A stretch of DNA of 44,269 bases, from assembly GCF_001434255.1 (NCBI RefSeq), contig NZ_AZEY01000034.1, positions 1 to 44,269 of the forward strand. Reading direction: 5' to 3'. The translations under genes and the position numbers were made by a program. Shown piece after piece: positions 1 to 44,176 of this stretch (the first letter of the stretch is position 1; each line of letters starts with the position of its first letter). Origin of the DNA: Lentilactobacillus diolivorans DSM 14421 (GTDB lineage Bacteria; Bacillota; Bacilli; Lactobacillales; Lactobacillaceae). The notes beneath the pieces are model-generated. The model saw only the letters and a program-made list of their open reading frames with translations, searched no databases and had not been told where the DNA came from.

Positions 1-22
1 TATGCCCTGTGATACCAAGGGA

Positions 23-757
23 TCAGTCTGTCTTCATACTTTCAAGTTTCAGATAACTGATGTCACTCTTGTTGGTTTTATTGAACTTGAGCCTCTTATA
101 AACATTAATTTGGGGCACAATTACCTCATATAAGCTCAAAGCAGTAGTTTGATAGTAGTTAGGCTGTGTTTTGACAATTGAATTAGTTTTGATTCCCGAC
201 AGGGACCCGTCAAAATCATAACTGGCATCCACATGTAATCCCCTAAAGTTATCGGTATACTGCCAGGCATTAGCATTATCAATGCCTGGTTGGTTAACCC
301 CATACGCTGCTACCCAAATTCGCTGATCAACTAAAGCTACACGATTAATCCGACCGTACTTAAACCAGGAACCACTTCCATAGGTAATCACATTAGAATA
401 CCCTTGAGATTTTAAATACTTTAAAAAGATATTTACTTGGGACGTCGTACTGGCCGGTAAATCTTGAGCTTCCACATCGATCGCTAACACCGTTGATTTA
501 TCCAGCCCGTACTTTTTAACCCAAGCCAAAAAGTACTTAGCCTCGGCCAACCCATTTCCGTGAAAGAAATGATAAGCGCCCACGGTGCCAAATACTTGAT
601 AAGCATTTGATACCTGTTCACCAGCACTGGCATTCACATAAATCGTTCCTTCGGTTAGCTTAACCATAACTGAATCAATTCCATATCGTTTGAGGTTCTC
701 AAAAAAAGCTTTTGACTTGCTTTGATAAACAGCCACATCGGCAACTAATTTAGGCAT
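23..757 (-). CDS. Endolysin, GH25 muramidase family
   Basis: Predicted phage lysozyme that cleaves the glycan strands of peptidoglycan at the end of the lytic cycle. The GH25 fold is recognised from the N-terminal ADVAVYQ strand, the central AIDVEAQD acidic motif that carries the catalytic Asp/Glu pair, and the WQYTDN segment near residue 165. No signal peptide is seen, so release probably depends on the holin just upstream. ATG at 757 is preferred to the upstream GTG because AAGGG lies 8 bases before it; it overlaps the holin stop by 8 bases. After about residue 195 the tail resembles the beginning of a cell-wall-binding domain but stops abruptly, so the C-terminus may be shortened. Confidence 0.88.
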   Translation of the reverse strand: MPKLVADVAVYQSKSKAFFENLKRYGIDSVMVKLTEGTIYVNASAGEQVSNAYQVFGTVGAYHFFHGNGLAEAKYFLAWVKKYGLDKSTVLAIDVEAQDLPASTTSQVNIFLKYLKSQGYSNVITYGSGSWFKYGRINRVALVDQRIWVAAYGVNQPGIDNANAWQYTDNFRGLHVDASYDFDGSLSGIKTNSIVKTQPNYYQTTALSLYEVIVPQINVYKRLKFNKTNKSDISYLKLESMKTD

Positions 758-1238
758 TTGCACCACCCTTTTCTGTTGATTGCGACGTTTGAGAAACGTT
801 TTCTACGTTAGTGTTCACCAAATTAGGTGATTGAGTATTCATTACAGATTCTGTGGGAGCTGGTGTTACAGGGGCAAAATGATTATCAGCTCCTGTCGCT
901 TTGTAAGCTTGATAAGCTTTTTCGACTAAACCGGCAATCACTTGGTAATCAAGGTCAAGGCCGTTGGCTTTTAGCTGGTCGTTAACAAAACGCATAGCCT
1001 CTTTCTTCCGATCAGATTTACTCAAGGCTGCCAAAACGGCTAATTCTGGCACAATCACATTAGCCAGTTTCAATCCCAATTCTAACGCTTGCTGGGCATG
1101 AACGTTTTTTTCAGTCGCAATCTTTTTTTGCAAGTACGGATTAATAAGCTTGTAAACTACAGGAATGACGGCAACAAAAAAGGCAACCACGCCGGTTGCC
1201 TTCAAAGAATTAAAAACATCTAAAATATGTGTAAACAT
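750..1238 (-). CDS. Holin, LLH-type
   Basis: 162-residue membrane protein expected to permeabilise the cytoplasmic membrane and time lysis. One hydrophobic helix (residues about 15-33, TGVVAFFVAVIPVVYKLI) is followed by a charged amphipathic segment and a polar Thr/Ser/Asn-rich tail. This is typical of the LLH holins found beside endolysins in Lactobacillus phages. AGGAGG lies just upstream of the ATG. The stop codon is embedded in the start region of the endolysin, so the two are translationally coupled. Its promoter is probably in the small-RNA array upstream or reached by readthrough from the late operon. Confidence 0.8.
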   Translation of the reverse strand: MFTHILDVFNSLKATGVVAFFVAVIPVVYKLINPYLQKKIATEKNVHAQQALELGLKLANVIVPELAVLAALSKSDRKKEAMRFVNDQLKANGLDLDYQVIAGLVEKAYQAYKATGADNHFAPVTPAPTESVMNTQSPNLVNTNVENVSQTSQSTEKGGANA

Positions 1239-1266
1239 AATGGTTCCTCCTTAATTTTGAGTAAAG

Positions 1267-1377
1267 AAAAAGCACCTACCCTTGTTGGTAGATGCTTAAA
1301 CCCTGTATTGGATGCATAACTTGTACAAAATGTCCAAGTGAGAATACCAAGACTAACAGCGCTAACGATTAGCCTTG
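1267..1377 (-). ncRNA. Small RNA unit A (last unit of array)
   Basis: Predicted ~111-nt transcript. A -10 TATAAT lies at 1383-1388 with no clear -35. A hairpin starts at the predicted +1 (1348-1377; arms CAAGGCTAA and TTAGTCTTG, 9 bp with one G-U). A second hairpin has arms ACTTG/CAAGT. The end is a 10-bp terminator stem (1271-1296, AGCATCTACC/GGTAGGTGCT) followed by five T. It lacks the CCCC loop found in other units. It sits directly upstream of the holin gene, so its terminator could also limit readthrough into lysis genes. Called from sequence pattern only. Confidence 0.6.
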
Positions 1378-1483
1378 ATGTGATTATACACCATTTTTTA
1401 TTAGTAGATTCAATTTAGTAACAAATTCACCACTTATTATTAAAATAACAATGTGGATGTTGGTTCTTAATTATAAGCAAAAT

Positions 1484-1596
1484 AAAAACTTACCACCAGT
1501 TATAATAGTGTTTAGCATCTAAATGCGTAAACACCGTAACTAATAATAAGTTGTTTTGAAAATCATGAAAACTTAATCAGCAATCCAACTGATCAA
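1484..1596 (-). ncRNA. Small RNA unit K
   Basis: Predicted ~110-nt transcript from the -10 TATAAT at 1601-1606. A start-proximal hairpin (1573-1596, TTGATCAG/CTGATTAA, 8 bp with one G-U) is followed by a strong two-part hairpin at 1508-1534 (GTGTTTA/TAAACAC enclosing GCAT/ATGC). The 3' end has only a weak 4-bp stem (AACT/AGTT) before five T, so its terminator is the poorest of the array along with that of unit H. No C-rich loop. It is included because it repeats the promoter, start hairpin, internal hairpin and T-run order of its neighbours. Confidence 0.45.
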
Positions 1597-1651
1597 AATA
1601 ATTATAACCTATTTTAGGTTAAATTAGAATAATCATTTTTGATTGCATGAT

Positions 1652-1787
1652 AAAAACACCTGCTATTACTAACAGATGCTTAAGATGCTTAGATCATGCA
1701 CGGGGATACATAATCATTATGAAATTGATCTCGAATGCATCAACCAATGTCTTCCAGGGGGGGTCAAATTAAAAAAGTTTGACCTCG
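1652..1787 (-). ncRNA. Small RNA unit B, with two C-rich segments
   Basis: Predicted ~136-nt transcript. Promoter TTAACA (1816-1821), 16-bp spacer, TATAAT (1794-1799). The start hairpin at 1762-1784 (GGTCAAA/TTTGACC) is followed by a run of seven C (1757-1763). An 8-bp hairpin at about 1692-1715 shows TCCCCG in its loop. The terminator at 1652-1681 (AAGCATCTG/CAGGTGTTT, 9 bp with G-U pairs) ends in five T. The C-loop hairpin sits in the same place, before the terminator, as in units G and I. Confidence 0.65.
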
Positions 1788-1822
1788 ATAAATATTATAC
1801 CTCATTTTTTTAATTTGTTAAT

Positions 1823-1937
1823 AAAAACATCTACTCATTGGTCAGAGACGAGTAGATGTTTAATCGGTGCTTACTAAGTCCCGTGAATGGAGAGGTTTAG
1901 AATAAGCTAGTTGTCTAACATAAATCACACCGATTAA
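1823..1937 (-). ncRNA. Small RNA unit C, long-range stem
   Basis: Predicted ~113-nt transcript. Promoter TTTATA (1964-1969), 16-bp spacer, TAAGAT (1942-1947). The 5' end (TTAATCGGTG, 1928-1937) pairs over 10 bp with CACCGATTAA at 1860-1869 and closes the whole body of the RNA, a different plan from units with a local 5' hairpin. The terminator is a perfect 10-bp stem (ACATCTACTC/GAGTAGATGT) followed by five T. A short CTCTCC lies in the enclosed loop, but there is no CCCC. Confidence 0.62.
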
Positions 1938-1970
1938 GTTAATCTTACAGCAAAATTATTAAATATAAAC

Positions 1971-2049
1971 AAAAAGCACTCGCCCTTCAGCAAGTACTTC
2001 TGTATTAGTGTTTATAATAATCTAAGAGATCATAGTTTATGAGCTCTTA
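1971..2049 (-). ncRNA. Small RNA unit D (shortest unit)
   Basis: Predicted ~79-nt transcript. It has one of the best promoters of the array: TTTACA (2077-2082), 16-bp spacer, TATAAT (2055-2060). A start hairpin at 2023-2049 pairs TAAGAG with CTCTTA and has an inner CATA/TATG stem. The terminator at 1975-1999 (AGTACTTGC/GCGAGTGCT, 9 bp) is followed by five T. It has no C-rich middle hairpin, so it may be a deletion derivative of the longer units. Confidence 0.62.
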
Positions 2050-2097
2050 ACTGCATTATAGCCACTATTTTCAATTTGTAAACTTCCTAAGTGAAAT

Positions 2098-2224
2098 AAA
2101 AACACCCATCATTGATGGATGTCTTTATCGTATCGAGGTATACAAATTACGGAATAAACATGAAATGCCCGGGAGCAAATCATCTATCCCATTAAATGAG
2201 ATTAGCTGTGTAAAGACTAACCTA
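2098..2224 (-). ncRNA. Small RNA unit E
   Basis: Predicted ~127-nt transcript. Promoter TTTACA (2253-2258), 16-bp spacer, TAAAAT (2231-2236); the -35 begins a few bases past the end of unit F. The start hairpin pairs GGTTAG with CTAATC. A middle hairpin (ATGA...TCAT closing TTGC/GCA) exposes UCCC in its loop. The terminator at 2102-2122 is a 9-bp stem (ACATCCATC/GATGGGTGT) with a 3-nt loop, followed by T5A. Confidence 0.62.
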
Positions 2225-2257
2225 CATCTTATTTTAACCTAACTTCCTGATTTGTAA

Positions 2258-2365
2258 ACCAAAGACACCTAATTATAACTAGGTGTCTTTGGTTGATTCC
2301 TATTTATTGAGGAATACTTCTTGAGGAGCTATGGTTAGGTAAGTATAGGGGGTTACACTAACCAT
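2258..2365 (-). ncRNA. Small RNA unit F, CCCCC in 5' hairpin loop
   Basis: Predicted ~108-nt transcript from an extended -10 (TGCTATACT, -10 hexamer 2372-2377) with no good -35. The first hairpin starts at the predicted +1 (2331-2365, ATGGTTAG/CTAACCAT) and displays ACCCCC (C run 2348-2352) in its loop. A second hairpin pairs ATTCCT with AGGAAT. The terminator at 2261-2290 is a perfect 11-bp stem (AAAGACACCTA/TAGGTGTCTTT), although the T run is short. Here the C-rich loop is in the first hairpin rather than the third. Confidence 0.62.
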
Positions 2366-2432
2366 ATGGAAAGTATAGCACGTTTTTTGAGTATGGAATC
2401 TAATTTTTTGAAAAATTCTTGACGACTGGAAT

Positions 2433-2568
2433 AAAAAGTACCCATCTACAAGATGAGTACTAAATTCACATATGGGGGTATATGAATCACAAAACGATAG
2501 ATCAATACTCTAATGAAAGAGTTACTATCAGGGGTATGAATAGTATCATGAAGAGTACTATTCATACC
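2433..2568 (-). ncRNA. Small RNA unit G, CCCCC-loop hairpin
   Basis: Predicted ~135-nt transcript with a perfect extended -10 (TGCTATAAT, hexamer 2572-2577). The 5' hairpin (2533-2568) has a perfect 13-bp stem, GGTATGAATAGTA pairing with TACTATTCATACC. A small ACTCT/AGAGT hairpin follows, then a hairpin at 2464-2487 with ATTCATAT-type arms around CCCCC (2474-2478). That hairpin is nearly identical to one in unit I. The terminator (2437-2461, AGTACTCATCT/AGATGGGTACT, 11 bp) ends in five T. Confidence 0.68.
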
Positions 2569-2584
2569 TGAATTATAGCACAAT

Positions 2585-2618
2585 AAAAAACAGAGCCCAC
2601 TGGATTGAAGTCAATATT
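2585..2618 (-). ncRNA. 3' remnant of small RNA unit J, cut by the IS
   Basis: Short stretch between the IS end and unit G. On the minus strand it ends in GGGCTCTG followed by six T, as expected for the 3' arm and T run of an intrinsic terminator. The matching 5' arm is not present on either side of the IS. The IS event therefore probably removed sequence, or this is an unrelated terminator fragment. It lies exactly where the end of unit J should be. Confidence 0.4.
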
Positions 2619-2638
2619 TGAGACAGGTTTTAAGAGAC
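2619..2638 (+). repeat. IS terminal inverted repeat, left end
   Basis: TGAGACAGGTTTTAAGAGAC matches the right end read on the opposite strand (TGAGACAACTTTTAAGAGAG) at 17 of 20 positions. The outermost TG/CA dinucleotides are those usual for IS3 elements. Confidence 0.85.
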
Positions 2639-2722
2639 ATTCAGAACCGCGTTTACCTGCCACAGCTCAAATAAATCATTAATCGTGATTAATAACTTAT
2701 TTGAACCATGGAAAGCATTAAA

Positions 2723-3565
2723 TCAGGCGGCCATTTGGCTCGTAAGTGTTGCGACTTCAACTTGTAAGGGGGTCTGGTAGCCCAGTGAACTATGAATTCT
2801 CTTCCTATTGTAGAAAGCATGCACATATTCAAAAAGGACAGCAGCGGCAGTTTCATAATTCTCAAAGACCGGCACTGGATAAACACATTCCTTTTTGAGG
2901 GAAGCATGAAAAGATTCCATTGGTGCATTATCGTATGGACACCCCTTACGGCTGTAAGAGTGGCGGATATGTAGTTCTGTTAACCGTTGGTTGTAATCAT
3001 CGCTGGTGTACTGTGATCCTAAGTCTGTGTGGATAATCAGGTCCCCAGTAATGGTTCGATTTTTAACCGCGCTTTCCAGGGTCTTTAAGCCTAAATCAGT
3101 AGCCATCTTTTTTGAGAATGAATAGCCGATAATTCGTCTTGAGTGCAGATCCATGATGGTTGATAAGTAACACCAGCCATTACGCTTCGTTTGAATATAG
3201 GTCATATCAGCGGTCCATTTTTGATTTAAACCAGTGGTCGAGAAATCCTGCTTAAGCAAGTTGGGACGCTGTTCAACCTTGGTTTTGGAAGCCGAAGCCG
3301 CTTTCCATTTATTGACGGTAACGGAGTGGATATCCAGTTCCTTCATGAGCCGGGAAATCCGTCTTGGGCTGCACCGACGCTGCAGTGGTTGAAGTTCCAG
3401 ATTCAATTCATGGTGGATCTTCATAACACCGTATCGCTGCTTGAATTCCGCAAAGATCCGCAGAATCCGTTGTTTTAAGTCCGCATCTTCGGCCCGGCGT
3501 TTTGAAGGCTTTGGGGATCGATAACGATAATACTGAGCTCTGGAAACACCGAGGATTCGGCACAT
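2723..3565 (-). CDS. IS3-family transposase OrfB (DDE integrase domain)
   Basis: Catalytic part of the transposase. An HTH_21-like segment (residues about 20-50, GVMKIHHELN) precedes the rve integrase core with all three acidic residues: D in WTADMTY, D in IIHTDLGSQY, E in APMESFHASLK. The open frame runs upstream of the ATG to an A7 slippery run at 3646-3652 inside orfA. The functional product is therefore probably the OrfAB fusion made by -1 frameshifting; the separate ATG at 3565 has no convincing ribosome-binding site. The gene looks intact. Confidence 0.92.
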   Translation of the reverse strand: MCRILGVSRAQYYRYRSPKPSKRRAEDADLKQRILRIFAEFKQRYGVMKIHHELNLELQPLQRRCSPRRISRLMKELDIHSVTVNKWKAASASKTKVEQRPNLLKQDFSTTGLNQKWTADMTYIQTKRNGWCYLSTIMDLHSRRIIGYSFSKKMATDLGLKTLESAVKNRTITGDLIIHTDLGSQYTSDDYNQRLTELHIRHSYSRKGCPYDNAPMESFHASLKKECVYPVPVFENYETAAAVLFEYVHAFYNRKRIHSSLGYQTPLQVEVATLTSQMAA

Positions 3566-3618
3566 CTTAGTTACCTGGTGGTGATGGCTTTCTTGGTGAA
3601 TGTAATCAAAAATATTGG

Positions 3619-3870
3619 TTACTTCTGCGCAAGGAAGCCCAGGGCTTTTTTTAGGATTTCGTTCTCCTCAGACAGGGAAGCCAGCCGCTTTTCCATCGCT
3701 TTAATTTCGTCTGGCGATTTACCGGATTGAGTTTTGGCTTGGCCCTGGATCCACTTATGAACGGTTGAATAGCCAATGCCATATTCTCTGGCCAGTTGGG
3801 CGGCTGATTCGCCTTGTTTATATAGGTTGATGATGTTTTGTTTGAATTCTTTGTCGTAACGAGTTGGCAT
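3619..3870 (-). CDS. IS3-family transposase OrfA (HTH, leucine zipper)
   Basis: 83-residue DNA-binding half of the IS3 transposase. It has an HTH_Tnp_1-type helix-turn-helix (residues about 8-45, KQNIINLYKQGESAAQLAREYG) and a C-terminal heptad region (MEKRLASLSEENEILKKAL) that mediates oligomerisation. The codons CTA AAA AAA GCC contain an A7 run; a -1 slip there opens the OrfB frame (reading S-P-G-L-P... through to M-C-R-I), giving one polypeptide that ends at 2723. Confidence 0.9.
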   Translation of the reverse strand: MPTRYDKEFKQNIINLYKQGESAAQLAREYGIGYSTVHKWIQGQAKTQSGKSPDEIKAMEKRLASLSEENEILKKALGFLAQK

Positions 3871-3913
3871 GTAAAAATTCCTTCCTTTTGAGAGACGATT
3901 TATTCATTATACG

Positions 3914-3933
3914 CTCTCTTAAAAGTTGTCTCA
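3914..3933 (-). repeat. IS terminal inverted repeat, right end
   Basis: Read on the minus strand this is TGAGACAACTTTTAAGAGAG, the partner of the left repeat at 2619-2638 with three mismatches. The element's promoter for orfA is expected between this repeat and the ATG at 3870. Confidence 0.85.
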
Positions 3934-3989
3934 GGAATCAGCTTACATCCAAATTTTGACAAGTAGTTTTTCCGCACCACTTATCAAAA
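3934..3989 (-). ncRNA. 5' half of small RNA unit J, interrupted by the IS
   Basis: Promoter TTTCAA (4015-4020), 16-bp spacer, TATAAT (3993-3998). The predicted transcript opens with a perfect 11-bp hairpin at 3954-3989 (TTTTGATAAGT pairing with ACTTGTCAAAA, one G-U). About 20 bases later the sequence runs into the IS. This matches the 5' domain of the other units, so the IS has split a formerly complete RNA gene. Transcription from this promoter would now enter the IS and read in the same direction as the transposase genes. Confidence 0.6.
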
Positions 3990-4039
3990 TTAATTATAGT
4001 TCATTCTAAATAAATTGAAAGCCGTTTTTTATGGACATA

Positions 4040-4168
4040 ATAAGCACCTACTTTTCAGTAGGTGCTAAGAATCAGTACCAGTTAACTAGCTGTAAATAAG
4101 GTAATATCAAAAAGGGGGTACCATCTTCAAATACTATGGTTTAGTTAACCTAATCAATACTGATTATA
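4040..4168 (-). ncRNA. Small RNA unit H, long-range stem and CCCCC
   Basis: Predicted ~125-nt transcript. Promoter TTTACA (4197-4202), 16-bp spacer, TAGAAT (4175-4180); the -35 lies one base beyond the T run of unit I. The 5' end AATCAGTA pairs with TACTGATT and GTTAACT with AGTTAAC near the 3' end, so the body is closed by a two-step long-range stem as in unit C. Inside, an ACCAT/ATGGT hairpin is followed by single-stranded ACCCCC (C run 4114-4118). The terminal 9-bp stem (4043-4066, AGCACCTAC/GTAGGTGCT) has only a poor T run. Confidence 0.6.
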
Positions 4169-4203
4169 GAAATCATTCTACAACAATTTTAATAAATGTA
4201 AAC

Positions 4204-4347
4204 AAAAAGCACCTATTCTGAGGAAATAGGTGCCCAATTCATATATGGGGTATATGAATAATCATAATTGGGGGAAATATACCTCGAACGAAATATATCT
4301 CGCAATGCATTTGGTGGGTAGCAGTATTTAGAAACTATTACCCACAC
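4204..4347 (-). ncRNA. Small RNA unit I (first unit), CCCC-loop hairpin
   Basis: Predicted ~144-nt transcript starting just after the tail-fibre stop. An extended -10 (TGTTACAAT, hexamer 4354-4359) is present but the -35 is weak. The 5' hairpin at 4314-4345 pairs GTGGGTA with TACCCAC and continues past one mismatch. A weak AU-rich stem is followed by CCCCC, then a hairpin at 4237-4259 with ATTCATAT/ATATGAAT arms and CCCC in the loop. The terminator (4209-4233, GCACCTATT...AATAGGTGC) ends in five T and may also end the late structural operon. Confidence 0.66.
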
Positions 4348-4385
4348 AAATGAATTGTAACACCATCTCGGAAATGTGACACAAA

Positions 4386-6032
4386 TTACTTCTCATGAAT
4401 TGGAATTGTTAAATTAATACCTATGACATCATCTACACCAGCTCCAAATCCCACGGTAATTTCTTCACTATAAGAATTATTAAAATCTAAATAGTATTCA
4501 CTACCGTTAGAGTTCTGATAATTTTGATGATATTGAATATCATTAGAAAGAGAATTGTAGCCCCTATAACTAATAATTGATTGCACGTTTATTATTTTTT
4601 CCGTAGTACCATTAGTGTTTTTAGGTTCAGCAGTCCCCATTGTGTAAAGGACACCATTGAATATTTTGTAGTAAGCATTCAGATATAAATTTGAATTGCT
4701 AGGAAAGGCTACCCAACCACTATCATCAGCAACCGGCAACTGATTAACAGTAGCGACATCAATTCCAGACTTTTGAAGCTTACCGGTGAAGTTAGTATCT
4801 TGCCCCGTTCGTGCAAGATCAGATGGCAGACTATTCGCAAGTAGCAATGGGTTCTTATCAACAGTTGGAACAGTTTCGAAGTTGTTTGCACCGGATAGAT
4901 GGGCAACTTTTAAATCATCAGCTAAGGATTTATAAGCCACAACTCCTTGTACTGCAGTGACCGTATATGCAATTCCGTCCTCATCAATCAACGTCCCACC
5001 ACCGACATTGTGCCCAGCGGATCCATACCAAGTAATATGGATAAATCCTCGTAATGCTTTAATGCTGGGACTATTGATTACGGCAGTTGCACAATACAAT
5101 GTATAGAATCCAATAGTTAAATTACTGATAACATTCGATAGATCACCCGAAGGGACATTCACTAGAACACTCCCATCATCTGCTGTTATTTTCTGTTTTT
5201 GCCAGTTGACAGTATCATTAACATTTACTTTTTTATCTAGTTGCTGATTAACATCGATTGTCTTGGCGTAAGCATTCCACTCACTCCAAACATTGGTTGT
5301 AGAATTGAAATAGCGAGTTGATCGAATGTTGTTAATTGTGTCATCTAAAGTTTGCATGATTGGCACCGTCTTATCTCCACTACCAATCGTGGTCAAATAA
5401 CCAATTCCCGAAAAACCACTTGGAGCATTTACCACTGTGGTATCGTTGATAATTCTGGTAATGCTGATATCTAAAATGGCATTGAAATCAGTACCTATCG
5501 AAGCTGTCTCATTTGGATAATTTAACGCATTTCCTATCGACTCAGAAATCATCTGTTGAACATCTTCACGGGACAGGGTACCACTGTTTGAAACCATAAT
5601 GGTTACTTGGGTACCACGAACGATGTCAGTATATAGATCCAGATAAATCGAAGCTGTTGTCGCATTATTTTCTTTAGCAATCATTGTCGCTCCGGCAGTT
5701 AATGGAATAACACTGAATAATACCTCTTGATTGGTTGAATTTTGTTTGGCATAGAGGCCGACACCATAGTAAATATAGTCTTCATTCACATCACTGTTAT
5801 CAATGGTCACTCCTAGCCGAGACTTGTTGTCTTGTGTTGCAATGGCTTTAGGTGTTCGCGATTGCTTATAGTTAACACTAGTTAATGCTTGTAATTGTGA
5901 AACCGAATCACCGGTAATATCATCGGTAATCGTCACTGCTTTAGTAAAGGTAATTGCGCTGATTCCTAAAGCTTGGTTCATCATGGTTAATGCTTGATTG
6001 GTTAATGTATTTTTACCCCAAGTTGCTGGCAT
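4386..6032 (-). CDS. Tail fibre / receptor-binding protein
   Basis: 548-residue protein at the end of the baseplate genes, the usual place for the host-recognition fibre. The N-terminal ~180 residues look like a baseplate-attachment module (ATWGKNTLTNQALTMMNQAL, then beta-rich sequence). The middle has the ARTGQDTNFTGKLQ and INQLDKK-type linkers common in fibre shafts. The C-terminal ~120 residues are Tyr/Asn/Gly-rich beta structure, likely the binding tip. ATG overlaps the stop of the upstream tail protein by one base. The specific receptor cannot be told from sequence. Confidence 0.72.
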   Translation of the reverse strand: MPATWGKNTLTNQALTMMNQALGISAITFTKAVTITDDITGDSVSQLQALTSVNYKQSRTPKAIATQDNKSRLGVTIDNSDVNEDYIYYGVGLYAKQNSTNQEVLFSVIPLTAGATMIAKENNATTASIYLDLYTDIVRGTQVTIMVSNSGTLSREDVQQMISESIGNALNYPNETASIGTDFNAILDISITRIINDTTVVNAPSGFSGIGYLTTIGSGDKTVPIMQTLDDTINNIRSTRYFNSTTNVWSEWNAYAKTIDVNQQLDKKVNVNDTVNWQKQKITADDGSVLVNVPSGDLSNVISNLTIGFYTLYCATAVINSPSIKALRGFIHITWYGSAGHNVGGGTLIDEDGIAYTVTAVQGVVAYKSLADDLKVAHLSGANNFETVPTVDKNPLLLANSLPSDLARTGQDTNFTGKLQKSGIDVATVNQLPVADDSGWVAFPSNSNLYLNAYYKIFNGVLYTMGTAEPKNTNGTTEKIINVQSIISYRGYNSLSNDIQYHQNYQNSNGSEYYLDFNNSYSEEITVGFGAGVDDVIGINLTIPIHEK

Positions 6033-6649
6033 TAGTTAATCCCTCGATTCTGTATAATAAAACGGCTTTGAGTCACTGCCACATTTCCAACATATAGGCT
6101 TTGTTCATCAATTTGACTAAATTCAGTTCCATTAATTCGAATTGTCGCTTCCACTGACCTTGCCAGTTGCTCTGTCAGGAACCGAACGGCATCCGGATCA
6201 CTGGCGTATTGAAATGGTAATCCTGTAATGGTAATTGTTCGCGCTTCACCACCAGTTTGCCATGGTTGAATAATTCGAACATCCGAATACTGACAATCTA
6301 AGATATAAGCAACTGCTTTAATGATAGAATCTGTCGTTCCGTCAGCCGTCGCCGCTACCATTGCTGCTCGAATTTTAAATTTGTAGAAGTCATCGTTCGC
6401 CCCAGCTCGGTAAACATTAAACTGTTCGCCAAAATAGTCTAATGATTTACCCGTCAAATACTCCAACGAATGAAAGATATTCATTTTTTCCAACGCGGTA
6501 TCGAAATCATTCGAGCGCTGCAGAATTGCATTCATAATTTTATAGAATCGACTATCATATTGTTGATTGGTCAGACGACTCATTTTGCTCATTAATGTTG
6601 GTGTATCGTCCATTTCAATCAGGTTATCATCATGTTTGATATCAGCCAT
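6032..6649 (-). CDS. Baseplate wedge / tail protein I-like (YmfQ, DUF2313-like)
   Basis: 205 residues. The order baseplate J - this gene - tail fibre is that of Mu gp47/gp48 and P2 J/I. The protein has the expected helical N-terminal half (ILQRSNDFDTALEKM, YLTGKSLDYFGEQFNVYR) and a beta-rich C-terminal half (ITITGLPFQYASDPDAVRF). It probably links baseplate wedges to the fibre. ATG overlaps the upstream gene by 8 bases. The family call rests on position and fold impression more than on catalytic motifs, as it is structural. Confidence 0.6.
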   Translation of the reverse strand: MADIKHDDNLIEMDDTPTLMSKMSRLTNQQYDSRFYKIMNAILQRSNDFDTALEKMNIFHSLEYLTGKSLDYFGEQFNVYRAGANDDFYKFKIRAAMVAATADGTTDSIIKAVAYILDCQYSDVRIIQPWQTGGEARTITITGLPFQYASDPDAVRFLTEQLARSVEATIRINGTEFSQIDEQSLYVGNVAVTQSRFIIQNRGIN

Positions 6650-7826
6650 TGGTTGTCGTCACCTCAATCTCATCAGCATTAACCACTGGTGCTTGTGTGA
6701 TGCCTAAAGTGACATCAGTAGCTGCTAACTTGGTTTTATCCAAGCCCATTTGAACAACAAATGAATCAATGCCTTGAACTTGAGCTAGTGCGCCGTATAC
6801 TGCACTGATGTAAACTGGCCGTCCCATGTGTAGGTTATTGACATAATTCTGTAAGGCATTTAGTACATCGTCGGTACCACTATCGGCATTCCAGTTACTA
6901 TTCGCCTTAACGGTAATTGCGAAGTAAATCGGAACTTCTGTTGCTCGATTAAAATAGATCGTTTCGGGTGTGCCCGCAATATCGTAGGCAACTGCTGATA
7001 AGCTGCCGAATGTTTGAGTACCGGCGCCTTTGGCTTTCCGCACTGCATTGGCAATGTCCTGATCAGTTCCACCATAGACAACAATTTGAAGGGCATGTGC
7101 TGGTGTCCCATTAGCATCTGTCACGCCGCTAGTATTATTATCAATGTACTTGTCTCGAATCCCGTTCACACTATCCAAAGCGGTATAGATACCGTCAATT
7201 GTTGAGCCAATGTTAGCAACGTTGGTTTCTAGAATCCGTTGGCGTAGTGAATCATCCGTTTCTTCATCTGCACCCCCCACAGCCGGTTGTGGATTATCTA
7301 CGGTATCAACGCCATCAACCGGCGTCGCAAACTCGGTTATCGTATGGGCTTGCACATTGGTATCACTCGAATAATCTTCTGAAACCACCGATGCGGTAGC
7401 TGTAAACGTGCCATCGCCATCATCATCAGAAAGTACAGTATCTTCAACTAGCACAAAATAAGTGCCATCGTCAGTCATGAATTCGGTAGTCCCACCTTCA
7501 AGTAAAACCGCACTTGTACCCGTAATATTTACCGTTGCATTCGCCTGTTGGGACTGGTTACGAAAAATCCCCCGATTATAAGCTAGATAATCGAGGGAAA
7601 CACCGCTGGCAAACTGCACGTAGGCATTTAGCCAAACTTGTTGCTGTTTTTGGTTCTCTTTCCAATTATTATAAGCAATCGACCTAATCAGTCGTCCATA
7701 GGTGGATTGCGGTTCATCATTGATGTCATCACCTAAAAATTTCTTGAAAATGGTGGTTTGCTTATCAACTTCTTCATTGTAGCTCTCGACATAGTAGCCG
7801 GTATCATCAAATGCCACTGCTATCAC
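6642..7826 (-). CDS. Baseplate J-like protein
   Basis: 394-residue wedge protein of contractile-tail baseplates (Mu gp47 / P2 gpJ family). Typical segments are the early GVSLDYLAYNRGI region, the central GGADEETDDSLRQRIL motif (a strong hallmark of the family) and the ALDSVNGIRDKYI segment that follows it. It overlaps the gp25-like gene upstream by 20 bases, as expected for coupled translation. Supports a myovirus assignment. Confidence 0.9.
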   Translation of the reverse strand: MIAVAFDDTGYYVESYNEEVDKQTTIFKKFLGDDINDEPQSTYGRLIRSIAYNNWKENQKQQQVWLNAYVQFASGVSLDYLAYNRGIFRNQSQQANATVNITGTSAVLLEGGTTEFMTDDGTYFVLVEDTVLSDDDGDGTFTATASVVSEDYSSDTNVQAHTITEFATPVDGVDTVDNPQPAVGGADEETDDSLRQRILETNVANIGSTIDGIYTALDSVNGIRDKYIDNNTSGVTDANGTPAHALQIVVYGGTDQDIANAVRKAKGAGTQTFGSLSAVAYDIAGTPETIYFNRATEVPIYFAITVKANSNWNADSGTDDVLNALQNYVNNLHMGRPVYISAVYGALAQVQGIDSFVVQMGLDKTKLAATDVTLGITQAPVVNADEIEVTTTNG

Positions 7827-8214
7827 CTACCGTTAACTTTAAATTTCCCTGATCATCATACTGGTTGCCAGAATTTTGAATATCGGAAGAATGGATATTA
7901 GCGAAAATTTCACTGGTTCGTTTAGCCAGATCGTGTGTAATATCAACACCGTCAACCGCATCAACCCGTGGTTCCTGATTCATTAAAGTATCAGAAATAT
8001 CCTGAGCCGCGTAATTATCATCATAGGCTTTTCCTAGAATGTTATCCAAAGGTAGCCCACAATCCGGTGCCAACTCGTCCATTTCGCCCTGTTCAATGCC
8101 TAGAACTTCGCCACAGGATTGCATGAGTTCGTCAGTACCAGAAACTTCTACTAAATCGTGAGAAAGCTCATCTTGAACAACATCGCCGTCGGGTTCAATC
8201 ATTAAATCTCGCAT
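7807..8214 (-). CDS. gp25-like / DUF2634-type baseplate wedge protein
   Basis: 135 residues, placed between the spike and baseplate J exactly where the gp25/W homologue lies in contractile phages. Recognisable features are the N-terminal DLMIEPDGDVVQDE opening and the C-terminal helix plus beta hairpin. It is acidic, as usual for these proteins. The start ATG overlaps the upstream stop by one base. Confidence 0.65.
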   Translation of the reverse strand: MRDLMIEPDGDVVQDELSHDLVEVSGTDELMQSCGEVLGIEQGEMDELAPDCGLPLDNILGKAYDDNYAAQDISDTLMNQEPRVDAVDGVDITHDLAKRTSEIFANIHSSDIQNSGNQYDDQGNLKLTVGDSSGI

Positions 8215-8669
8215 CAGCTCACCTCCGAATTAATCGCGACAACAATCGCATCATTTAAATCGTGTTCCCGTGGATCTTCTTCACGACCAAAATACCCCTT
8301 ACCAACTTCATAGCCATCTAAACAATAATCATGAACCACCATCGTCACTTCTGTGCCCGGTACCAGCCGTTTAGGCGGTGGCGTAATCTTCATTGTGCCA
8401 GCTCCATCTCTCGGACAAATTGGGGTTAAATAATCCGCCATGTGGTCCCACATCTCATCAATCCAGTAAACGCTAAATGGAACTTCAACATTATTAATAA
8501 TTCCCATTTTGTCACCAGAAAGGTCTTCGGGAAGCGGTTGGATGTCAGCAATGTGCTTGGCCTTGTCATACTTAACGATTTTGCCGACTAAGCAATTGTG
8601 ATTATCACGGGAAGCCGCTTCGGCAATTGCTTGAGCAGCTTTTTTATAAGGATTTGTAATCTTTGCCAA
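8214..8669 (-). CDS. Gp138-like membrane-puncturing spike protein
   Basis: Baseplate spike that tips the tail tube. An OB-fold domain follows a short helix (VGKIVKYDKAKHIADIQPLPEDL, then PICPRDGAGTMK), the usual plan of the Gp138 N-terminal domain; the protein ends soon after (about 150 residues). The start is probably TTG at 8669, because GAGGTG lies 8 bases upstream and overlaps the stop of the preceding gene. An in-frame ATG at 8702 exists but lies inside the preceding gene without a ribosome-binding site. Confidence 0.68.
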   Translation of the reverse strand: MAKITNPYKKAAQAIAEAASRDNHNCLVGKIVKYDKAKHIADIQPLPEDLSGDKMGIINNVEVPFSVYWIDEMWDHMADYLTPICPRDGAGTMKITPPPKRLVPGTEVTMVVHDYCLDGYEVGKGYFGREEDPREHDLNDAIVVAINSEVS

Positions 8670-8679
8670 CTTAAACACC

Positions 8680-9726
8680 TCATTTAGCAACAGCGCCATC
8701 AACCGTCATTGTCGGCTGTGTGCCGTCAAAACTATACGTTCCACTTTGAGCAACCAGCGTCTTCTTAATGAAATCGCCACGAACCTCGTACGTACTGTGT
8801 ACGGAGATTTGTGGCAATAAATAAGACGATGATTCATATAGCTCTTCGCCTGAGTCGGAATCATCTGAATAGGATGGTTCACTTAATAATCCAGACGAGT
8901 AGTCCAAAATAATATGAGTTTTTTTGCTCTCTTTAAGATCATCAATCTTAAGCTGATCACGATCGTAAAACATCTTACTTTTGCATCGTTTGACCAATTT
9001 ATTAATCGCGTCTAATGGCTTACCGGAAACGGTGTAGCCTTTTTTAAACGGTTTATTCTCAGCTAACTTCGTGGATGAAATCTTTATGCCTGATTCCTTA
9101 GCAATCTTCTTAATCGCAACCGAAGGCTTAACGCCCTTTTTGAAAGACAAGTTACTGTAAAACTTTTTCTTAACGGTATAACGGGTCCGTTTAATTTTGG
9201 TTTTACCAGCAATGTGAACATGGCCTTCCTTGTAATGGCCCACTCTTTTACCATCTTCATCGGAATAGTAATGAATTCGTCGCTTAACCGTTTTGCCTTT
9301 TACATTGACCTTAACCCTTTTATAGTGACCGACTTTCTTAGTCTTTTCCTTTTGGATTGACTTGGCAGAAATGTTACTAAAGTCCTGACCGGCGGAGAAA
9401 GTAATTGGCACGGTCGTTGTTACACCATCGTACTGAATCGGGTCAACTGACTTAATTTTGCCAGAACCAATCAGCATTTTTCCGAAAGCTTCGTAAGAAA
9501 TAAAAAAAGCGATTTGATTTTTTGCTTTTAAATAGTTCCTCATATTCTGACTGGTGTTAATAAACGATGCGTCTGATTCCGGCGGTGTGGCATCCATATT
9601 AAAGTTAATATCAAACGTAAACAATAGGTCTGAACCGGGACGCAAATTGTTTTCTAATTCTAGCGTTTTGCCATCAGTTGTTTTTATTGTGCAGTACAGT
9701 ACCGGAAAACGTAGTAAGTTACTCAT
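8680..9726 (-). CDS. Baseplate hub protein (gp27-like)
   Basis: 348 residues, between the plug protein and the spike, the place of the hub that carries the spike. Beta-rich ends flank a very Lys-rich centre (about residues 125-215) in which a K-V-G-H-Y-K motif occurs twice, followed by a LysM-like region (GVKPSVAIKKIAKESGI...KPFKKGYTVSGK). The hub role is inferred from order and fold impression. ATG at 9726 overlaps the upstream stop by 8 bases. Confidence 0.55.
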   Translation of the reverse strand: MSNLLRFPVLYCTIKTTDGKTLELENNLRPGSDLLFTFDINFNMDATPPESDASFINTSQNMRNYLKAKNQIAFFISYEAFGKMLIGSGKIKSVDPIQYDGVTTTVPITFSAGQDFSNISAKSIQKEKTKKVGHYKRVKVNVKGKTVKRRIHYYSDEDGKRVGHYKEGHVHIAGKTKIKRTRYTVKKKFYSNLSFKKGVKPSVAIKKIAKESGIKISSTKLAENKPFKKGYTVSGKPLDAINKLVKRCKSKMFYDRDQLKIDDLKESKKTHIILDYSSGLLSEPSYSDDSDSGEELYESSSYLLPQISVHSTYEVRGDFIKKTLVAQSGTYSFDGTQPTMTVDGAVAK

Positions 9727-43342: not shown

Positions 43343-44176
43343 ATGAAGGCTATTACATATCAGGGAATAACTTTCACTACTTATCAACAGGCAGCTGACT
43401 TTATTGGTATTAGCAAAGTTGGCTTCTCAAAGCGCTTTCAAAAATATAAAGCTGGTATTTATTCACTAGACAATTTGTTTAAAAGTTGTCACCCAAACAA
43501 AAAAGAAATTTCATATCATGGAAAAAAATTTAACAGTTATGTAGAAGCCGCAAAATATATTGGTTCAACGCCAGAAACATTTGGTCGCCGTCATAAGCAG
43601 TATGAAAACGGGGAAATTTCTTTAGATAAATTATTTCGAAGAACCAAATATACTCCCTATGAACTGCCAGCTTATCATGGGAGAAAATTCACTATCAAAA
43701 AAGAGGCTGCTAGCTTTTTGAAAATTAGCCAAACGGCACTTACAAGACGTTTGAAATATTATCACTCTGGAAAATATGATTTGGACGATTTGTTTTCAAA
43801 AACTCCGAACGAAATAAGAAACCGACATGCTAAAAAAACGCCATTACAATTTGCTGATCAAACATTTGATACTTATCAACAGGCAGCTGACTACGTCGGT
43901 ATTTCTCAACCTGCTTTCTCCAATCGTATGAAGAAATACTACTTGGGAAGCTACGCCTTTAATCAAGTTTTTGAAGCCCCTAAGCATACACATGGAAATG
44001 TGATTAAGTACAAGGATCATACTTTCTATACCTATAAAGCAGCCTCTGAATTTATTGGCATCAGCTATAATTCCTTCTCTAAACGATTAAAAAAATATAA
44101 GTCTGATGCAATCACTCTGGATGAATTATTTGCTAAACCAGATGTTTTTCGAACTAATCAAAATAAATTTGGTTAA
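43343..44176 (+). CDS. Five-repeat putative DNA-binding protein
   Basis: 277 residues made of five ~50-residue repeats (starting near 1, 54, 106, 168 and 223). Each has an aromatic/basic strand (Y-x-G-x-x-F-x-[ST]-Y), a helix with Q-A-A-D/E-F-I-G-I-S, a recognition-like helix F-S-x-R-x-K-x-Y and a closing S-L-D-x-L-F. This matches the small helix-turn-helix repeats found next to GIY-YIG/HNH nucleases (IENR1/NUMOD-like), but no nuclease domain is present. AAGGAGA precedes the ATG. Its DNA target or role is unknown. Confidence 0.72.
   Translation: MKAITYQGITFTTYQQAADFIGISKVGFSKRFQKYKAGIYSLDNLFKSCHPNKKEISYHGKKFNSYVEAAKYIGSTPETFGRRHKQYENGEISLDKLFRRTKYTPYELPAYHGRKFTIKKEAASFLKISQTALTRRLKYYHSGKYDLDDLFSKTPNEIRNRHAKKTPLQFADQTFDTYQQAADYVGISQPAFSNRMKKYYLGSYAFNQVFEAPKHTHGNVIKYKDHTFYTYKAASEFIGISYNSFSKRLKKYKSDAITLDELFAKPDVFRTNQNKFG

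Follow-up and report, generated by a model that had tools for sequence, protein, structure and literature searches.

A contig of Lentilactobacillus diolivorans DSM 14421 (NZ_AZEY01000034.1; its whole stretch of 44,269 nucleotides is hereafter called the window) carries, between a tail-fibre-like phage gene and the holin gene, a tandem array of predicted small RNA (sRNA) units. The array is located on the minus strand, as are the late genes of the window, and runs from position 4360 to 1266, i.e., it fills a gap of ~3.1 kb in which no open reading frame (ORF) of at least 60 aa is listed outside an insertion sequence (IS). Twelve -10 boxes were recognized on this strand, ten of which open units that extend from promoter to terminator, while one belongs to a unit cut by the IS (unit B) and one to a unit without a clear terminator (unit I1). 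An initial annotation of this DNA had described a minus-strand tandem array from tail fibre to holin, and these units bear that description out. The locus probably represents a set of phage-borne sRNA ‘morons’, some of which would mimic a core host sRNA of the csRNA/LhrC-like kind and block ribosome-binding sites.

The array differs markedly from chance expectation. With the IS removed, the array amounts to 1808 nt in two pieces, for which our own promoter and terminator scoring returned 11 terminators on the strand predicted to be transcribed and 2 on the other strand, compared to 1.2 +/- 1.0 (maximum 4) in 40 shuffles; the corresponding figures for promoters are 7, 1 and 1.9 +/- 1.2 (maximum 5). 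The 11 scored terminators comprise nine unit ends and two internal hairpins (of units A and E), and the long terminator stem of unit H falls below the cut-off of the score. Seven of the twelve -10 boxes (those of A, K, C, E, F, J and I2) pass the promoter score, the other five (B, D, G, H and I1) were assigned by visual inspection, and two additional passes occur at 4281 inside unit A and at 3911 inside the IS. A consensus scan of positions 1-9000 on both strands also yielded an excess of terminators (14 vs 6.1 +/- 2.5), with promoters at chance level (30 vs 27.7 +/- 6.5). Furthermore, the ten delimited units together fold with far lower energy than dinucleotide shuffles (summed energy, z = -18.8 and -18.4). 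Unit boundaries are predictions, and all statistics cover delimited units only, with 2 of the 12 units of the window, about 4 of the 20 in a related array of L. hilgardii and about 2 of the 15 in that of a genome termed G004 being dropped. The earlier claim that these are separate sRNA genes lying head to tail is well supported by the excess of terminators and promoters, by structure, by covariation and by the homologous arrays presented below.

Type-1 RNAs and a similar chromosomal sRNA

One class of units, designated type-1, possesses four hairpins (H1 to H4, the last being the terminator) that are common to twelve units in a MAFFT alignment which was not fitted to structure. Among these twelve, 20 of 37 base pairs are changed on both sides, as compared to 8.8 +/- 1.8 in shuffles, and 91.7% of cells are paired, a value that drops to 27-47% after sliding the partner, although this comparison favours the unslid version since one of the twelve aligned units had supplied the structure. 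A model-fitted alignment of 37 matches shows 28 of 36 pairs changed on both sides, the fitting being biased towards the structure. The proportion of C is 0.37-0.55 in type-1 loops and 0.14 in the stems, and a C motif, i.e., CCC, CUCC or CCUC, is present in H1 of 14, H2 of 21, H3 of 23 and H4 of 6 out of 29 type-1 rows, which are not all independent and from which 8 rows of one allele (L045) were dropped. Unit A carries the motif in H3 and in its terminator loop, and unit C in H3 only. When the units of the window and of the L. hilgardii array are combined, 24 of 89 apical loops contain the C motif, against a mean of 5.1 and a maximum of 10 in 100 shuffles, and the reverse strand, with 1 of 81, resembles its own shuffles.

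A model designated R2, which was trained on phage units only and includes A and C in its training set, scores A at 100 bits and C at 95.9 bits, and E reaches 28.7 bits (E-value 0.021). The scores of D (24.1 bits) and I2 (21.6 bits) are at chance, as wrong-strand matches in the same region attain 24.1 and 20.1 bits. Of the initial proposal that all units form one family, the part that stands concerns the type-1 units, which have one structure (strongly in A and C, weakly in E); several of the other units recur from array to array as families of their own.

In the genus, R2 also returned weak matches of 30.9-49.1 bits, own host included; these belong to a chromosomal sRNA that contains several stretches rich in C. 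A model built from nine chromosomal copies (R3) detected this sRNA at E <= 1e-3 under strict filters in 23 of the 24 genomes of the genus and in none of the 373 other genomes of the family. Two or three matches were present in 20 of the 23 positive genomes and one in the remaining 3, and in 19 of the 23 at least two share a contig and are at most about 1 kb apart. In the nine loci that were read, a gene of 281-290 aa is found nearby, which in L250 and L254, the two loci scanned, encodes an alpha/beta hydrolase according to Pfam (L-numbers denote loci and G-numbers genomes of the searched samples). A third, weaker copy lies between the other two in six of the nine (L250, L251, L254, L255, L257 and L258), L256 (E 0.03) being a possible seventh case. 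The three copies of the own host are located at 4877-5029, 5287-5437 (the middle copy, 33.6 bits) and 5735-5899 of L250 (G000 contig 20). A hairpin of 18 bases, ATATTCCCCTCAGAATAT, is shared without any difference by host copies and some phage units, e.g., those of L043, L037 and L129; the core 16-mer of this hairpin is present in 21 of 397 genomes, i.e., 19 of this genus and 2 of another genus (g35), some of these matches being in prophages, and the reversed 16-mer control is absent among the matches listed. The relation between host and phage sRNAs may reflect descent or convergence. A permissive Rfam scan of the host sRNA (L090 1300-1750) returned nothing credible and did not list LhrC, for which Rfam holds a model.

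Two side observations concern this chromosomal sRNA. Two genomes of genus g35 have a diverged relative (L279 1437-1559 and L280 1414-1560; 34.5 and 35.3 bits) with CCCCCC and UUCCCCUCAG stretches. In addition, direct repeats of the form TTCACA-N5-TTCACA lie upstream of 6 of the 14 host copies checked (L250 4830-4857 and 5242-5258; L251, L253, L254 and L256) and were absent from five phage array pieces. They possibly constitute a regulator site; repeats of this type would be response-regulator sites.

Homologous arrays and organization of the locus

Homologous arrays occupy the same tail/holin junction in other Lentilactobacillus prophages, in agreement with the earlier expectation that other phages would have family matches in this position. 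Such arrays are represented by about 20 units in 3.19 kb in L. hilgardii DSM 20176 (L034, L046, L047 and L057), with a 97% allele in L045, and by about 15 units in 2.67 kb on G004 contig 101 (L099), both counts having been made by eye and several of the hilgardii units being undelimitable. A second hilgardii prophage possesses 5 units (L048/L058), G014 the start of an array (L100), and L129 an array of 4 units with a different downstream gene; two-unit versions exist in L018/L023/L043, and single type-1 units occur in further phages. Between arrays, related units match out of order and with gaps, and the arrays therefore look like recombining cassettes. Unit H, for example, matches one of the G004 units (78% over 77 nt, E 3.6e-11), and a hairpin similar to the 5' hairpin of unit B was recognized by eye in the same array. 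Of note, a diverged pair of C-loop sRNA units, designated T2, precedes a different holin in further phages of this genus (L022 about 7083-7310, and also L020, L028, L032, L033 and L121-L124).

A strict H3-hairpin pattern was found in 4 and R2 matches at E 1e-4 in 8 of 397 genomes of the family, all belonging to this genus and including the own genome, and in a sample of the order (295 genomes, strict filters) R2 matched the own genome only. A loose hairpin pattern identified at least 120 stretches in viral contigs, 80 of which (763 kb) were used as a negative control; here, one of the two R2 matches is a real unit (L192, 85.6 bits) and the second (L188, E 0.09) is doubtful, and a generic array detector marked one gap in L188 which by eye is unlike an array. 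In L192, an extra ORF downstream of the single type-1 unit (2856-3009, minus strand) reads by eye as pyridoxamine-oxidase-type (a gene in L019 and L031 starts similarly), as if this gap with its ORF beside the sRNA unit were a moron site. In line with the term moron, the units possess predicted promoters and terminators of their own and lie between phage genes, and related holins are found with and without the insert. Eight viral contigs (L049-L056), whose holin is 62-68% identical, have 150-257 nt before the holin with one terminator and zero array; L049 is tied to Levilactobacillus mulengensis and L052 to Lactobacillus phage Lb of L. brevis.

The delimited units of the window (10 of 12) measure 88-156 nt, counted from the first base downstream of the -10 box. 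Proceeding along the minus strand, type-1 unit A (4198..4359; -10 box 4359-4354) consists of four hairpins with an H3 loop CCCCA and a terminator loop CCUCA, and unit K (4036..4180; -10 box 4180-4175 or 4168-4163) of a long closing stem around a hairpin, followed by a terminator. Unit B (3952..3998; 3998-3993) has kept its 5' hairpin at the edge of the IS, beyond which type-1 unit C (2428..2577; 2577-2572) displays an H3 loop CCCCCA. Unit D (2249..2377; 2377-2372) possesses a 5' hairpin with a CCCCC loop and a palindromic terminator, unit E (2094..2236; 2236-2231) a terminator, unit F (1967..2060; 2060-2055) a 5' hairpin and a terminator, and unit G (1820..1947; 1947-1942) a long closing stem and a terminator. 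They are followed by unit J (1649..1799; 1799-1794), in which a 5' hairpin precedes an unpaired C run and a terminator, by unit H (1478..1606; 1606-1601) with its long terminator stem, by the doubtful unit I1 (1395..1475; 1475-1470), which has a weak hairpin and an arbitrary end, and by unit I2 (1266..1388; 1388-1383), the last before the holin, with a 5' hairpin and a terminator.

The IS, a minus-strand element of the IS3 family at about 2601..3951 with inverted repeats and Pfam matches to rve and HTH_Tnp_1, is the sole copy found in the own draft genome. A target duplication was not seen around it (the outer six bases are GCCCAC and AATTTT), and part of unit B and part of a further terminator were therefore probably lost together with the insertion, the surviving 3' half of that terminator being read at 2584..2600 (minus strand), i.e., at the edge far from B. 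Directly downstream of the array lies the holin gene (750..1238, minus strand; Holin_LLH-like, Pfam PF09682, E 2.1e-4, 22.1 bits, which is below the curated cut-off of 24.9), a homologue of which (68%) is annotated as holin in Lactobacillus phage Lb (NC_047983), followed by an endolysin gene of glycosyl hydrolase family 25 (23..766, minus strand; PF01183, E 1e-32). Upstream, the tail-fibre-like gene (4386..6032, minus strand) is a 548-aa ORF named by its position, without a Pfam match; matches to it, mostly partial, are present in 16 of 24 genomes of the genus, the own included. The window constitutes an entire contig of the own genome (G000:C79) with a counterpart in IMG/VR (UViG_2657245078_000001) in which match positions are identical. 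At its far end, an ORF at 43343-44176 (plus strand) matches NUMOD1 and helix-turn-helix domains, each in single stretches below passing, and is possibly a regulatory or homing-endonuclease-like gene.

Protein coding was considered and provisionally rejected for the hilgardii array, whose single listed ORF of at least 70 aa (76 aa) overlaps unit ends, and the sequence AAAGGAGGG within it, which resembles a Shine-Dalgarno (SD) site, is altered in the 97% allele as judged by eye. Rfam returned no gathering match in the window and nothing credible in a permissive scan of positions 1240-4400, and its gathering matches in four related loci are limited to two tRNAs and one DUF3800-I RNA, the latter (RF02969, 56.1 bits) at 280-399 on the minus strand of L037, a phage contig that also has a type-1 unit. 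A literature search did not find a description of such arrays or of Lentilactobacillus sRNAs, although such a description may exist in print.

Possible function and alternative explanations

In the mechanism proposed here, each unit would be expressed from its own sigma-A-type promoter, its RNA beginning, or nearly so, with a hairpin and ending in an intrinsic terminator, and the RNAs would be made in the lysogen. The type-1 RNAs, i.e., A and C in the window, would be four-hairpin C-loop RNAs that are related to or imitate the chromosomal host sRNA, and their C-rich loops may pair with G-rich SD sequences and so block translation. The phage would thereby add copies of a host-like regulator that are uncoupled from host promoter control, to the presumed benefit of the phage or the lysogen. 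Translation repression is, on balance, the likely mechanism for the type-1 units, and the proposal names no specific role for the long-stem units K and G or for the others. Of the roles suggested initially, the control of host or phage mRNAs is preferred in view of the C-rich loops and of the likeness of type-1 to the host sRNA, with the function itself being presumptive.

Pairing of the loops was assessed against a host sample of 146 predicted genes (158 kb, 9 of 20 contig stretches), the starts of which were picked partly by SD, which biases SD counts upward. GGAGG is present in 54 and GAGGG in 14 of the 146 SD windows, and windows from coding control regions gave 0 for both and 4 for GGGG. 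The SD-pairing bias, i.e., loops against the sampled SD windows compared with coding windows, is -1.25 kcal for 16 hilgardii units (12 shuffles: -0.56 +/- 0.18) and -2.04 kcal for five type-1 units of other loci together with two T2 units (-0.93 +/- 0.22), both values exceeding the shuffles. C-rich apical loops in the window number 7 of 33, as compared to 1.9-2.0 in shuffles (the highest shuffle being 8 in one run and 5 in another). Moreover, loops having a 6-mer in common with own-host sRNA loops are in excess in the window (7 of 33; shuffles 1.9, maximum 4), in the hilgardii array (12 of 56; 3.0, maximum 7) and in five type-1 units taken from other loci (15 of 20; 1.9, maximum 6), the G004 array having 7 of 37 (2.7, maximum 8).

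Several observations weigh against this interpretation. The unit transcripts are predicted from sequence alone, and the clear type-1 members in the window are A and C only. The SD-pairing bias of the window's 10 units (-0.65) lies within shuffles (-0.47 +/- 0.15), and GGGG is found in only 12 of the 146 sampled SD windows. An unpaired C motif occurs in 5 of 10 units of the window (shuffles 4.3 +/- 1.1), in 7 of 13 units of G004 (5.0 +/- 1.0, maximum 7) and in 2 of 5 units of L048 (2.0 +/- 0.6), all within shuffles. Furthermore, the 18-mer common to host and phage units is absent from the window, and thus from A and C, while R3 gave modest scores on 13 phage loci (at best 31 bits, E 0.0019, in L129) and zero match in the window at E <= 1. 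The likeness between host and phage RNAs could be convergence on C-rich hairpins.

The alternative that comes closest, which we nevertheless regard as unlikely, is that the units are sRNAs with individual, unrelated targets such as superinfecting phages or host defence mRNAs, their specificity residing in the variable 5' parts and the C-rich loops being entry points only. The strong differences between the 5' parts of units, the recurrence of several unit families across arrays and the range of array sizes from 1 to about 20, as expected of a repertoire, would agree with this explanation, but type-1 loops are more conserved than their stems, and a blastn search of the two array pieces at E 0.01 against 50,697 phage records (own-genome records possibly excluded) yielded zero matches on either strand, and hence no long antisense match.

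We attach little probability to the RNAs binding a protein through their repeated C-rich loops, as a sponge like CsrB/RsmY, instead of mRNAs. Repeated similar loops within one RNA are typical of such sponges, a comparison also made for LhrC (PMC4132741; this and the other papers are cited here from excerpts), and a short conserved stretch of the csRNAs has been proposed as the binding site of an unknown factor (PMC3091779). The motif is, however, the complement of the SD sequence, and LhrC, which has the same layout, pairs with mRNA (PMC4132741); no candidate protein is known to us, and no search was made for one. Equally improbable is a non-functional pile-up or decay of promoter/terminator units at a hot spot, devoid of any function in trans. 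Degraded-looking units exist (I1 and several undelimitable hilgardii units), the IS and the probable deletion have been tolerated, and 9 of the 21 substitutions at paired positions between the hilgardii alleles break the pair; yet these alleles show fewer substitutions at paired (21/1209) than at unpaired (31/836) positions, and covariation and loop conservation extend across species. Finally, titration of the host C-loop sRNA itself is very improbable: phage-encoded anti-sRNAs exist in Escherichia coli prophages (PMC4104026) and phage loops that pair at <= -7 kcal with own-host sRNA loops are more frequent than in shuffles (a fraction of 0.024 vs 0.011), but phage loops are C-rich like those of the host and on average do not pair better with them (mean best duplex -2.25 vs -2.51 +/- 0.16 in 15 shuffles), which speaks against a sponge.

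Translation repression by type-1 mimics of the host sRNA is therefore favoured, because of the precedents of LhrC and the csRNAs, the loop-SD pairing, the common 6-mers and the lack of average pairing against host loops, and it is the best reading because of A, C and their relatives. A more far-reaching scenario, which we put forward tentatively and consider somewhat doubtful, is that arrays of up to about 20 recombining sRNA cassettes began as copies or imitations of the core host sRNA, escaped its regulated promoter and then diversified, amounting to an RNA-based takeover of host translation control; if true, this would parallel, at the level of riboregulation, the way in which phages mimic host proteins. 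The chromosomal sRNA would add a core sRNA family for the genus, unmatched in the Rfam scans.

Comparison with known systems

To our knowledge, the prophage sRNAs known at present are few per phage and mostly belong to enterobacteria that use Hfq. An array of 10-20 sRNAs in a group reported to be without hfq (lactobacilli; PMC3091779), accompanied by a matching host family, would offer a natural system in which to ask why a phage carries many copies of a host-like regulator. Among prophage systems, the Pas sRNAs of E. coli resemble the array in that their genes adjoin the holin/lysozyme operon; unlike the array, they belong to lambdoid prophages, their multiple copies did not arise by tandem duplication and their terminators likely bind Hfq (PMC13192938). 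The anti-sRNAs of lambdoid prophages in enterohaemorrhagic E. coli (EHEC) are likewise sRNA cargo at a fixed moron insertion point, whereas they measure 51-60 nt and are arranged as convergent pairs, of which two members that were tested antagonise host sRNAs, and a tandem array is not described in the cited excerpt (PMC4104026).

Further parallels are provided by chromosomal sRNAs. The csRNAs of the CiaRH regulon are, like the units of the array, several related sRNAs within a genome; they carry anti-SD stretches, a feature that the phage units may have, and number 2-6 per streptococcal genome, with one on a plasmid, and limited similarity has been seen in streptococcal phages; they differ in that the anti-SD stretch is unpaired between two stem-loops and in having a CiaR promoter box (PMC3091779). 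The CiaR box NTTAAG-N5-TTTAAG was absent from five array pieces (transcribed strand) and from nine host sRNA loci (both strands). LhrC1-5 of Listeria monocytogenes are chromosomal, five in number and not of phage origin; like the array, they are multicopy RNAs with CU-rich UCCC motifs, and those in hairpin loop A, in the linker and in the terminator loop bind the SD region of lapB (PMC4132741). The type-1 RNAs have C-rich motifs in several loops, including the terminator loop, and the window has no Rfam gathering match. Lastly, the chromosomal C-loop sRNA of Lentilactobacillus differs from the array by its chromosomal location and by the TTCACA-N5-TTCACA repeats upstream of some copies, and resembles it in its C-rich loops, in its neighbouring copies with terminators and in an 18-base hairpin that is identical in some phage units.

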